NCBI GenBank assembly: GCA_021785065.1
Contig: JAJYGQ010000011.1
Location: 1 to 40,464 of the forward strand
DNA length: 40,464 nucleotides
Direction: 5' to 3'
From: a bacterium
GTDB taxonomy: Bacteria > Patescibacteriota > Minisyncoccia > Phycocordibacterales > JAKAEA01
Numbering within the stretch: position 1 is the first letter of the stretch; every line of letters begins with the position of its first letter. The notes under the pieces were generated by a model. The model saw only the letters and a list, made by a program, of their open reading frames with translations. It made no database searches and was not told the DNA's origin. This document shows positions 13,094-33,780 of this stretch, in pieces. The translations under genes were made by a program, and so were the position numbers.

Positions 13094-14152
13094 ATGTTTA
13101 AATCAAAAATTGCCGAGAGGCCACAGACGTACAAAGATATGAAAAGCGAGACGGGGTTGGTTATTAAGTATGTTCCCGATGAGTGTGGTGGTGCCGCGGT
13201 GCAGGTGATAGACGAGCAGGGTGCGACGGTAGCCGAAGCAGCATTTGCGGCGACGCGCATCGACGAGGCACATATTTTGTATATGGAAGTGACTGAGCTT
13301 TTGCGTTCGCGGGTGATGATGAAGCAGGATCGCTCGACGATTCAGCAAGCGGCGGAAAAACTGCTTGCGCTTTTTCGCGATGAGAAAGTTGATTTCAGTG
13401 CTGGCTTGTCTGCGCCGGCGGCAGCTCGTGCTCCATCGGGCGACTTCGTTGCCAATCCCGGTAAAAAAATTGACATTGATGTTGATGGCGTCACCTATCA
13501 GCGTTTGCCGGTACGTACTCGCCTCATCACTATGCGCGATACCGACCTCCTGCCAATTTTAGAAGAGTATGTGAAGCCATATTTGAAACCAGGTGACTCA
13601 CTCTATGTGAGTGAAAAGGCGCTTACGATTGTTCAGCAGCGCATCGTGAGTATGAGCGACATTAAGCCCTCAGCATTAGCACGATTTTTTGGTCGCAATG
13701 TGGGTAATTATTATGGCTCTACCGACTTTCATGGCTTCGGTCACGGCACGGCGATAGCCATGCAACTTTTTATTGAAGAGGCTGGTTTGCCGCGCGTTTT
13801 GTTTGCGGCGATTGTCTCCGCGCTCACCCGGCCGCTCGGTATCCGCGGCCTCTTCTATCGCATTTGCGGCAAGCGCGCCAAGTCTATCGACTGCCCAATG
13901 TCGTTTCTTATTTTGGAATATGCCCACTCGGCCAAGCTCGCGCCCAATCAACCTTCGGCTGCCGCGCGACGCTTTAAGCAAGCTCTCGGTTGTGACGTCA
14001 TCATTCTCGATGCCAACTATCGCGGCGCGTTTTCGCTCGGTAAATCCACGAGCGCAATTTCCGAAGACTTCATTGGCAAACTATTTCGCGACAATCCGCT
14101 CGGTCAGAGCGACGAGATGACCCCGTTTTGCATTGTGCGTAAGGTAGCGTAA
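13094..14152 (+). CDS. CofE-like (F420-0:gamma-glutamyl ligase family) protein
   Basis: 352 aa. From about residue 135 on it matches the CofE fold: LPVRTRLITMRDTDLLPIL, GDSLYVSEKALTI, MSDIKPSALARFFG, and near the end the family-typical DNPLGQSDEMTPF. CofE adds glutamate by GTP-driven peptide bond formation to coenzyme F420. No other F420 gene is visible, so the real acceptor is unknown. The first ~130 residues are an extra domain not recognised, joined by an Ala/Pro-rich linker. The gene directly precedes a PanD-like gene (9-nt gap). Amide-bond ligase is the safe reading. Confidence 0.65.
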   Translation: MFKSKIAERPQTYKDMKSETGLVIKYVPDECGGAAVQVIDEQGATVAEAAFAATRIDEAHILYMEVTELLRSRVMMKQDRSTIQQAAEKLLALFRDEKVDFSAGLSAPAAARAPSGDFVANPGKKIDIDVDGVTYQRLPVRTRLITMRDTDLLPILEEYVKPYLKPGDSLYVSEKALTIVQQRIVSMSDIKPSALARFFGRNVGNYYGSTDFHGFGHGTAIAMQLFIEEAGLPRVLFAAIVSALTRPLGIRGLFYRICGKRAKSIDCPMSFLILEYAHSAKLAPNQPSAAARRFKQALGCDVIILDANYRGAFSLGKSTSAISEDFIGKLFRDNPLGQSDEMTPFCIVRKVA

Positions 14153-14155
14153 AAT
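14150..14155 (+). promoter_or_regulatory. -10 element for the panD-like gene
   Basis: TAAAAT, overlapping the TAA stop of the CofE-like gene, with 6 nt before the ATG at 14162. Same geometry as other leaderless starts in this window. Confidence 0.4.
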
Positions 14156-14161
14156 ACCGAC

Positions 14162-14539
14162 ATGAATATTCGCGTCTGCATGGCAAAGCTGCATAATGTC
14201 ACGGTGACTGAGGCTAATCCTAATTATAAAGGTTCAATAACTATCGGTCGCAACCTACTCGAAGCCTCGGGCATTAAGCCCTATCAAATGGTCATTATCA
14301 ATAATGGCCGCAATGGTGACACTTGGCAGACCTACGTGATCCCCGGCAAAACGGGCGAAATTTGTCTCAATGGTCAGCCGCCGGCGCATCACTTTAAGCC
14401 TGGCGACGTGGTGATTATTCTTGCTGAAGCGTTTGTGACAGCTGAGGAACATGCGGCGTTCATCGCCAAAGCGGTATTTGTTGACGGAAAAAACAACGTC
14501 ACGAGCGTTGAGTCACACCTGCTTGGCCAGGAACTTTAA
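14162..14539 (+). CDS. panD: PanD-like pyruvoyl-dependent decarboxylase
   Basis: 125 aa, aligning without gaps to residue 60 with Escherichia coli PanD, which makes beta-alanine from aspartate. Kept: Lys9, Tyr22, the self-cleavage site Gly24-Ser25 (YKGS), Thr57-Tyr58, and the NG motif near residue 72. Changed: Arg54, which binds the substrate carboxylate in the known enzyme, is Thr here. Self-processing to a pyruvoyl enzyme is therefore likely, while the substrate may not be aspartate. It sits right after the CofE-like gene. The symbol refers to the family. Confidence 0.8.
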   Translation: MNIRVCMAKLHNVTVTEANPNYKGSITIGRNLLEASGIKPYQMVIINNGRNGDTWQTYVIPGKTGEICLNGQPPAHHFKPGDVVIILAEAFVTAEEHAAFIAKAVFVDGKNNVTSVESHLLGQEL

Positions 14540-14597: not shown

Positions 14598-15593
14598 TTA
14601 AAAGTTTAGCAGATCCTCTACCGGTTCATAGTCGGGTAGATGGGTAGTATATTTGTCTAGATAGGGAAGATGTGAATCTGGACAAATAAACACCGCCACG
14701 ATATTGTCTTCCTTGTTTCGATATGTGTCGAGCTCGTTTGTGCGTTCAGCCTTTTTAAGAAAACGAAGAAGCGCATAGCAAGCTAACCCCGATGTGGGAC
14801 CAACTGGTATACCATGTCGATTGAGTAGGGCGCTCATACTAAATGCATGAGGTGCGGAAATGTCGTGTTCAATGGGAAACGGGGCTTTCGAGCAATCAAA
14901 CCCAATCGCCATAAGCTTTTTTACGTTGCGTGCACCAGGAACATTGCCATTTGAATCACATATTGCGCCCACGAGTTGGGGTGGTTGCGTAACCGTTTGA
15001 AAAAAATTTTTAGAACCCAATAGAGTTCCTGTTGTTCCCAACGTGGCGCAAAAAACAGTTAACTGGCCGTCAGTTTGTTGCCAAACTTCTGGTGCCAACC
15101 ATTTTTCAAATGCTTCCCAATTGTGACGATTGGTGTACTGATCTATATCCCACCAACCAGGCTGCTCTCCTAATTCTCGAGCAAGTGCATTAGCTCCACC
15201 TTTTTTAGCATATGTAACTGTTGCACCCAGAATGTGAAGAATTTGAAGTTTGCCTGGAGCAATGTCTTCTGACACAACCGCAACGACGTGTTCAATGCCA
15301 AAAAATTTAGCTAGGGTAGCCAGTGCCGCAACAGTATTACCCGAGCTTGCGCAACATATGGTATGAATACCATCTAATTTTTTTTGCTCTTGAGCACGCG
15401 TGAGCATATTCCAGACCGGCCAAAACTTAATGTTGCCGTGGAGGGGCAGCTTTGCCAGTATGGTGATATTGCGTTTTGAGAATTCAGGAAATACAGAAGA
15501 AACATCAATAAGCGGTGTTGGTGGTTGCTGAGTTGGATCGTAAAACGGCTGGAAATTCCCAGCTTTTTTCCATTGATGAGGTGTTGTTGACAT
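14598..15593 (-). CDS. PLP-dependent enzyme, fold type II (cysteine/threonine synthase-like)
   Basis: 331 aa. The tryptophan-synthase-beta fold is shown by the likely PLP lysine in LHGNIKFWP (near residue 57), the phosphate-side loop CCASSGNTVAALATLAK and the Gly-rich cofactor loop GTTGTLLGS. VGPTSG and FICPDSH follow near the C-terminus. The family includes cysteine synthase and threonine synthase; the lysine motif here differs from the usual GSxKDR, so the substrate is open. A strong Shine-Dalgarno (AAAAGGAG, 7 nt) supports the start. Confidence 0.8.
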   Translation of the reverse strand: MSTTPHQWKKAGNFQPFYDPTQQPPTPLIDVSSVFPEFSKRNITILAKLPLHGNIKFWPVWNMLTRAQEQKKLDGIHTICCASSGNTVAALATLAKFFGIEHVVAVVSEDIAPGKLQILHILGATVTYAKKGGANALARELGEQPGWWDIDQYTNRHNWEAFEKWLAPEVWQQTDGQLTVFCATLGTTGTLLGSKNFFQTVTQPPQLVGAICDSNGNVPGARNVKKLMAIGFDCSKAPFPIEHDISAPHAFSMSALLNRHGIPVGPTSGLACYALLRFLKKAERTNELDTYRNKEDNIVAVFICPDSHLPYLDKYTTHLPDYEPVEDLLNF

Positions 15594-30124: not shown

Positions 30125-30823
30125 ATGAGGAAGCGCGGACCGAAACCTAAAAACACTATATCTACAATCTGGTCTGCTAATTTAGCGTATGCTCTAGGTC
30201 TCATTACAACAGACGGTTGTCTTTCTCGCGATGGTAGGCATATCATTTTTGTTTCTAAGGAAATAGAACAGCTTCAAAATCTCGCTAAATGTCTCAATAT
30301 AAAAGTCGTACATGGTAAGACTGTTTCTGGTACTGGTGTGGTCACATATCGTATTCAGATCAGTAGCCAGCTGTTCTATAAATTTTTAATATCAATCGGA
30401 TTAACTCCGGCAAAATCACTTACGCTTGGTGCGTTAAAAATACCCGATAAATTTTTCTTTAATTTTGCTCGCGGTTGCTTCGATGGTGATGGCTGCTCAT
30501 ATTCGTATTTAGATCCTCGATGGAAATCTAGTCTCATGTTCTATCTTTGTTTTGCATCAGGTAGTTACTCATTTATTCATTGGTTGAGCGCGACAATAGA
30601 GCGGCTAGCTGGTATTCGCGGATACATCTCTATCAGCAAAAAGCGAGAGGGAAAGAATAATTATTACCAACTTAGATTTTCCAAATACAAAGCGTTACGA
30701 TTAATCACCTTTCTCTACACCTCAGATTCAGCACCATATCTAACAAGAAAGCGCTTGAAAATAGAGAAAACATTAGATACAATACGCCGGCATAAGGGTA
30801 AGGTATTCAAGAGCACCCTATAA
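30125..30823 (+). CDS. LAGLIDADG homing endonuclease, freestanding
   Basis: 232 aa. Two LAGLIDADG helices are visible: LAYALGLITTDG (residues ~19-30) and FNFARGCFDGDG (~113-124), each ending in the catalytic Asp-Gly, so a single chain forms both halves of the active site. The basic tail (LTRKRLKIEKTLDTIRRHKGK) probably contacts DNA. It is not inside an intron or intein: rplS ends 48 nt upstream intact and tRNA-Leu starts 6 nt downstream intact. The likely target is a site nearby in alleles that lack it. Confidence 0.88.
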   Translation: MRKRGPKPKNTISTIWSANLAYALGLITTDGCLSRDGRHIIFVSKEIEQLQNLAKCLNIKVVHGKTVSGTGVVTYRIQISSQLFYKFLISIGLTPAKSLTLGALKIPDKFFFNFARGCFDGDGCSYSYLDPRWKSSLMFYLCFASGSYSFIHWLSATIERLAGIRGYISISKKREGKNNYYQLRFSKYKALRLITFLYTSDSAPYLTRKRLKIEKTLDTIRRHKGKVFKSTL

Positions 30824-32517: not shown

Positions 32518-33780
32518 CTATTCCATTTTTATTTGCTTATCTCTCATCACCACTCTGCTTCGGAGACATAACAATATCTCCCGTTTCTCGAAGATGCTGC
32601 CTTCTCGCAGAATGTGTTTGGTGTAGTTGCGGATATCGATATCGGTTGCCTTGATCACTCGCGGTTTTTCGCCCAGTAGCCCTGACTGAAATTTTTTGTG
32701 GCGTTCTATCTCGGCTTTGAGTTTTTCTTTGATGCCGATTTCGTCCAAATCTATTTTATCCATAAGCACGACTAGCTGCTCGACAAGGTCTTCTTCCCGC
32801 AGGTATTTCGCCTCGCAGCTTTTATCATGATATTTTGAGCAGATATAGTAGACGTAGCGGTGAATATTGCCGTTTTTTTGATGTTTCCATTTCTCGCAGG
32901 CGGTGATGCCGGATCCACAGTGGCCGCAGGTCATAAGGCGGGTGAAGGCGAATTCCTTACCGTAGGTACTCATGCTGTAGCTGTTTAAATTTTCTTGTAC
33001 TTTGTCGAAAAGCTCTTTGGTGATGATCGGCACGTGTTTGCCCTGATACCATTGACCGCCGCCGCGAGGATACTCGAATGAGCCGTAGTAGAAGGGATTG
33101 CGGAGCGCCATATACAGATTGCTCAAGGTTAGCGTCTTGCCATTGCGACCGGTGAATTTCAGGTCGTCCTTGAGCCAAGCATACACTTTTCGGCCCGACC
33201 ATCCTTCGTAGCCGACTTTCTCAAACAACTTTTTCATGATTGGTGCTCTATGCGGATCTATTGATACTTTGCATTTCTCATCTTTGTTTCGGCTGTTGAG
33301 GTAGCCGGTCGGCGCCACGCCCGGCCAGAGGCCCATCTCGCATCGCGCCCGCAGGCCGCGTTTGACGTTGATGACCTTGTTATCGTTTTCTAGCTTGGCT
33401 TGGCTGCCAAGAATCATCAGCAGGAATTTCTCGTTCGGGTTATTACTGAATTTCTGCCCGCCGTAGGTACGGATTTCTTTGAGAAGGCCTTGATCCATAA
33501 GATCGACGATTCTGCCCAGGTCACCGGCGTTGCGGCTGATGCGATCGGGTGCCCATGTCAGGATGCCATCAAACTTTCCCTGCTTGATTTCGTCGACGAT
33601 CTCGTTGAAGACCGGTCGCTGACCGGCTTCCTTGGCCGAATGCGACTCTTGTTTCGTCACGACGATATCAAGGTCGTTTTCCTTCGCCATCTTCTCCATT
33701 TCCTTGATTTGGCTCCCTATGGAGAGGATCTGCTTGTCTTCCTCCTCGGTGCTTTTACGGGCATAGAGGCAGTATTTAAT
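32518..33780 (-). CDS. Large serine recombinase without a canonical start codon
   Basis: About 420 aa if read from ATT at 33780. Site-specific recombinase. The catalytic motif YCLYARKSTEEE, with the nucleophile Ser codon at 33753-33751, lies upstream of the first ATG (33699), which would cut it off. The frame stays open to a TAA at 33900 but offers only ATT, ATA or CTG. Then come the resolvase core (GILTWAPDRISRNAGD), the recombinase domain (LYMALRNPFYYGSFEYP) and a zinc ribbon (CGHCGSG ... YYICSKYHDKSC), followed by a charged helical tail. Likely mobilises the neighbouring 505-aa gene. Confidence 0.85.
   Translation of the reverse strand: MKYCLYARKSTEEEDKQILSIGSQIKEMEKMAKENDLDIVVTKQESHSAKEAGQRPVFNEIVDEIKQGKFDGILTWAPDRISRNAGDLGRIVDLMDQGLLKEIRTYGGQKFSNNPNEKFLLMILGSQAKLENDNKVINVKRGLRARCEMGLWPGVAPTGYLNSRNKDEKCKVSIDPHRAPIMKKLFEKVGYEGWSGRKVYAWLKDDLKFTGRNGKTLTLSNLYMALRNPFYYGSFEYPRGGGQWYQGKHVPIITKELFDKVQENLNSYSMSTYGKEFAFTRLMTCGHCGSGITACEKWKHQKNGNIHRYVYYICSKYHDKSCEAKYLREEDLVEQLVVLMDKIDLDEIGIKEKLKAEIERHKKFQSGLLGEKPRVIKATDIDIRNYTKHILREGSIFEKREILLCLRSRVVMRDKQIKME

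Follow-up and report, generated by a model that had tools for sequence, protein, structure and literature searches.

A PanD-like decarboxylase lacking Arg54, linked to a CofE-like ligase and a PLP enzyme, in a few Patescibacteria

The window analyzed here is a 40,464-nucleotide stretch of DNA from contig JAJYGQ010000011.1 of a patescibacterial genome (G000) of 566 kb that is 92% complete; the genomes related to it in the database are small as well. The initial annotation had placed a CofE-like and a PanD-like gene side by side at 13094-14539. Both open reading frames are found there and are syntenic in a sister species (G001); they lie on the same strand, with the CofE-like frame ending 9 bp upstream of the PanD-like one. 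A third gene, which the initial annotation overlooked, encodes a PLP enzyme and completes what we call the trio. The features are as follows.

13094-14152, + strand: CofE-like amide ligase of 352 aa, with residues 121-352 as the predicted CofE-fold domain (Pfam F420_ligase, Foldseek, profile alignment)
13094-13453, + strand: additional N-terminal segment of about 120 aa in the CofE-like protein, present only in G000, G001 and G075 and with no Pfam match
14162-14539, + strand: PanD-like pyruvoyl decarboxylase of 125 aa, W55/PPA subfamily, Arg54 replaced by Thr (ORF, profile, structure search, tree)
14231-14236, + strand: Gly24-Ser25 codons, self-cleavage site forming the pyruvoyl group (sequence; E. 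coli PanD alignment)
14321-14323, + strand: codon 54, Thr where canonical PanD has Arg54 (sequence; alignment)
14378-14383, + strand: Pro73-Pro74 codons, at the place of Ala74-Ala75 when numbered as in PanD of E. coli and M. tuberculosis (sequence; alignment)
14598-15593, - strand: PLP fold-type II enzyme, CysM/CysK/SbnA-like, convergent to the PanD-like gene (Pfam PALP, 120 bits; neighbors in L003, L045, L047 and L048)

Elsewhere in the window, ORFs that by eye appear to be of the LAGLIDADG endonuclease and serine-recombinase types occupy 30125-30820 and 32521-33699.

The PanD-like protein scored 112 bits against Pfam Asp_decarbox (PF02261; cut-off 25) and 96.2 bits against the panD equivalog TIGR00223, under its cut-off of 106. 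TIGR00223 fails to separate the variant PanD clade, however, because the relative in L047 passes at 118.3 bits. An AlphaFold2 model of the window protein (pLDDT 87) gave aspartate decarboxylases as its first structure matches. When 99 PanD sequences are aligned, the window protein keeps Lys9, His11, Tyr22, Gly24-Ser25, Thr57, Tyr58 and Asn72, all of which are conserved throughout save His11, which has one exception. Retention of the Gly-Ser cleavage site and Lys9, and the presence of Thr at the position of Arg54, had been read from the letters alone in the initial annotation, and the alignment bears out all three. It also reveals Phe55 to Trp and, unremarked in the initial annotation, Ala74-Ala75 to Pro-Pro. 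Proline has no backbone NH to donate. The M. tuberculosis enzyme uses the guanidinium of Arg54 and the backbone amides of Ala74 and Ala75 to hold a ligand carboxylate that overlies the gamma-carboxyl of isoasparagine, and its R54A mutant is inactive (PMC6969166). Both arms of the clamp for the aspartate side-chain carboxylate, Arg54 and the Ala74/Ala75 NH groups, are gone from the window protein.

An enzyme of this kind might still decarboxylate aspartate, using a rebuilt carboxylate pocket, its beta-alanine being ligated by the CofE-like enzyme to another molecule, or exported or exchanged with a host, and not destined for pantothenate. All catalytic residues are kept, and the proteins of G000 and G001 carry basic Lys23 and Arg50, missing in other members of the clade, which might compensate for Arg54. 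Against this stand the loss of both clamp arms and the inactivity of R54A, the variability of residue 54 (Thr, Ser, Phe or Leu), which fits an altered specificity, and the linked PLP enzyme, which would be unnecessary for making aspartate.

For the CofE-like protein, Pfam F420_ligase (PF01996) gave 23.7 bits (cut-off 25) over residues 141-199 only, although relatives reached 44-45 bits, above the cut-off; no NCBIfam model matched the window protein. A Foldseek search with its AlphaFold model (pLDDT 57, a low confidence that probably arises because only four sequences entered the model) returned A. fulgidus CofE structures (2g9i, 2phn, 7uld) as the top five matches, with E values of 1.7e-4 to 1.2e-3, and the N-terminal part of CofE and its DTN/DAN motif align weakly with the profile. 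The window ligase likely has the CofE fold. The initial annotation described this neighbor as a gamma-glutamyl-ligase-type enzyme; likeness to CofE is no proof that glutamate is used. Trio-type CofEs form one clade (91/100, disregarding the L003 row, which was wrongly extracted) with a signature of its own, a GFGHGT insert and DANY replacing DAND. CofE-like genes of Sulfobacillus-type genomes, considered as added cases of co-occurrence, were rejected as lying outside this clade; their neighbors, where readable, are aldolase-like and leucine-dehydrogenase-like genes. Members of the broader patescibacterial CofE-like family are often found by eye beside surface-glycan-type genes (L169, L172, L174, L168, L221), apparently encoding an O-antigen ligase, a flippase, a glycogen synthase and a GH57-like protein.

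The PLP enzyme has a PALP domain with the catalytic Lys, the SGNT loop and a glycine-rich phosphate loop. Its best NCBIfam models were cysM and SbnA, at about 60-148 bits where the cut-offs are about 340-413, and it scored about 100 bits against the CysK/CysM equivalogs, whose cut-offs are 394-413. A profile of the enzyme gave strong full-length matches in five genomes, including G000 and G264. The gene was present in 6 of the 7 variant-PanD carriers, and none of the trio kind was found in the seventh, G075; relatives without PanD occur in G286, G064 and G444. The PLP gene is thus linked to the module but neither strictly required nor exclusive to it. In G286 and G064, the relatives have a C-terminal extension and lie, by eye, close to genes for a CooC-like ATPase and a Fur-like regulator (L222:4665-7569, L223:6029-9914). 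In G477 (L221:4724-7766), PAP2-like, PLP enzyme and CofE-like genes are neighbors in the absence of PanD, the last two being divergent.

The initial annotation had proposed surveying how often the CofE-like and PanD-like genes co-occur. Among 380 Patescibacteria genomes, variant PanD was found in three (G000, G075 and G264); seven other PanD matches were of the Arg54 kind where read. With a CofE-like profile made from trio members, excluding G075 and G264, the top three genomes of the 380 were the same ones, at 461, 389 and 378 bits, followed by a next score of 274. The two genes go together even when they are not adjacent. In G264 the trio is dispersed, the PLP gene lying two genes from the PanD-like gene and the CofE-like gene about 60 kb off, and in G075 the PanD-like and CofE-like genes are on separate contigs. 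Both genomes have a PAP2 phosphatase gene near the PanD-like one (L004:2275-2733, L165:7663-8184). All three genes are adjacent in five genomes and three arrangements: that of the window, shared by G000 and G001, and two other gene orders, in L045 and in L047/L048. Compared with the sister species, dN/dS is about 0.03 for the PanD-like and 0.06 for the CofE-like gene, with dS near saturation; constraint on the PLP enzyme is weaker than on either, with 58% identity between the sister species. The PanD-like gene is kept across large distances, at 54-65% identity.

These data can be set against a reading without joint function, in which a laterally acquired PanD happens to sit beside unrelated genes. 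The reduced genome, the separation of the genes in G075 and G264, and the faster evolution of the PLP gene are in its favor. It is harder to reconcile with the low dN/dS of both genes, their retention across large distances and the recurrence of adjacency in different orders, and we regard it as the least probable of the readings considered. Given synteny in the sister species and low dN/dS, the PanD-like and CofE-like genes are under purifying selection and their pairing is not due to chance.

We then consider what these genomes lack. PanB and PanC were found in none of the seven variant-PanD Patescibacteria, and CofD reached its cut-off in none of them; in the window's own genome, the panB, panC and cofD search suggested by the initial annotation found none at the sensitivity used. 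This agrees with its proposal of a small pathway other than pantothenate or F420 synthesis. In phmmer searches of G000 with E. coli queries, coaE, coaD, coaBC, cysE, folC and gshB were not found, in a genome that is incomplete and where divergent versions could escape, and the controls pgk, gpmM, glyA, folD, thyA and folA were found.

Since G000 has folA, thyA, glyA and folD but folC was not detected, the CofE-like protein could instead be a folate gamma-glutamyl ligase replacing FolC, as reportedly proposed for a CofE-family protein of Chlamydia, with the adjacency of the PanD-like gene incidental. The NCBIfam putative folate ligase model TIGR04132 matches CofE-like relatives weakly, at 14-15 bits. 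A general FolC substitute would not be expected to be so rare (about 24 of the 380 genomes have a full-length CofE-like gene). The sharing of trio-type CofE and variant PanD by the same three genomes, adjacency kept across three arrangements, and the clade's own signature also speak against this reading, which we judge improbable.

In the PanD tree, W55/PPA sequences form a clade of 22 (support 98/85) common to Patescibacteria and acidophile Firmicutes, and the window protein falls within a subclade of 11 that lacks Arg54 (97/91). The seven patescibacterial rows form one group (88/82, unstarred) inside sequences of Sulfobacillus thermotolerans and other Bacillota, and the canonical PanDs with Arg54 that other Patescibacteria carry are placed in other parts of the tree. 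This nesting suggests that the patescibacterial variant gene was acquired horizontally from acidophilic Firmicutes. Several of the MAGs bear sample names suggestive of a single acid-mine series. Sulfobacillus-like genomes also have another PanD variant, in which His54 is combined with Gly-Thr-Ala-Ala (L178:3084-3437, L179:2599-2991).

The strongest argument that the variant enzyme acts on aspartate comes from this part of the tree. S. thermotolerans (G522) has PanC and a single PanD, the Leu54 PPA form, so that either the Leu54 enzyme makes beta-alanine there or another source exists. PLP decarboxylases of G522 and G524 were examined as such a source and rejected, both being glutamate decarboxylases. 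Weighing this against the rebuilt clamp, we consider continued aspartate decarboxylation unlikely, though it is the most serious of the rival readings.

A comparable arrangement occurs in Paenibacillus, where a PPA-type PanD, a YheC/D ATP-grasp protein and a ThrC-like (threonine-synthase-like) PLP enzyme are encoded together in an operon-like cluster (L052, L054, L058, L059, L060, L182). In the Paenibacillaceae tested, this PanD is a second copy, and a canonical PanD beside PanC is also present. The Paenibacillus PPA branch retains Arg54, and its substrate may therefore differ. Synthesis of taurine via cysteate was considered for this cluster and rejected: the PLP enzyme scores as a threonine synthase (433-449 bits) and falls far under the cysteate synthase cut-off.

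The substrate of PanD, aspartate, is beta-carboxy-alanine, and CysM/SbnA-type enzymes yield beta-substituted alanines. A PanD that has lost its carboxylate clamp and is linked to a CysM/SbnA-like enzyme and an amide ligase fits a route in which a beta-substituted alanine is made, decarboxylated and conjugated as its amine; we hold it about evenly balanced whether the trio forms such a three-enzyme pathway in these few Patescibacteria. First, the CysM/SbnA-like PLP enzyme would convert serine or an activated serine to a beta-substituted alanine, such as cysteine or 2,3-diaminopropionate. Second, the PanD-like protein, after self-cleavage at Gly24-Ser25 to form the pyruvoyl group as in PanD, would decarboxylate this product to a beta-substituted ethylamine, which would be cysteamine if the substrate is cysteine. 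Third, the CofE-like ligase would use GTP or ATP to activate a carboxylate, which the analogy to CofE suggests is that of a glutamyl group, and couple the amine to it. We infer these steps from enzyme families and gene context. The interpretation in the initial annotation, an amine made by decarboxylation and joined to a glutamyl group, is partly supported; the order of those two events is one that we infer.

Several observations count against the three-enzyme reading. G075 has no PLP gene of the trio kind, G286, G064 and G444 have PLP relatives but no PanD, and the PLP enzyme is under lower constraint. The failure to find cysE in G000 bears on the donor step of the PLP enzyme, the Paenibacillus PPA enzymes keep Arg54, and the PPA enzyme of S. 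thermotolerans, with PanC and no second PanD, may make beta-alanine there. Conversion of cysteine to cysteamine would be the simplest case of the proposed route. A more specific version, which we think rather unlikely, has the trio turn a beta-substituted alanine, once decarboxylated, into an amide within a cell that seems unable to make CoA; a low-molecular-weight thiol containing cysteamine would be one such product.

PanD is usually regarded as acting on a single substrate, in the synthesis of vitamin B5. A clade with a rebuilt clamp, tied to a ligase and a PLP enzyme in genomes of about 0.6-0.7 Mb without pantothenate or F420 synthesis, suggests that such minimal cells maintain an undescribed small-molecule pathway, and no account of the three-gene module turned up in the literature library searched. 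Automatic annotation as 'aspartate 1-decarboxylase', 'F420 ligase' and 'cysteine synthase' would mask such a pathway. Through the Paenibacillus cluster, cultured bacteria too provide a form of the module.

In relation to known systems, the window protein resembles PanD (PF02261, TIGR00223) in fold, length, cleavage site and the other residues kept in the alignment, and departs from it at Arg54, Ala74-Ala75 and Phe55, in its sub-cut-off TIGR00223 score, and in a genome where the canonical partners panB and panC were not found. The ligase shares with CofE (PF01996, TIGR01916) a probable fold, the N-terminal motif region and the Asp of the DTN/DAN motif, whereas overall sequence similarity is very low, the N-terminal 120 aa are extra, the GFGHGT and DANY features are trio-specific, and CofD, part of the F420 context, was not found above cut-off in carriers. 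The Chlamydia protein is likewise a CofE-family member in a genome without F420; we are not aware of any link between it and PanD-like or PLP genes. The PLP enzyme has the PALP domain, SGNT carboxylate loop, GTTGT phosphate loop and Lys in an N-[IL]-K motif of cysteine synthase B and SbnA, and differs in its far lower scores and an altered C-terminal PYxDKYxTHLP motif. In methanofuran synthesis, MfnA and glutamyl ligase chemistry join a decarboxylated amino acid to a glutamyl group, a parallel in logic only, the enzymes being unrelated to the trio. SpeD, a pyruvoyl family that has neofunctionalized to ornithine or arginine decarboxylases, offers a precedent for a substrate switch with self-processing kept (PMC10407285), although it belongs to another fold family. 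The Paenibacillus cluster matches the trio in its three-part composition but uses a different ligase and a different PLP enzyme, and would represent an independent parallel to the patescibacterial module.
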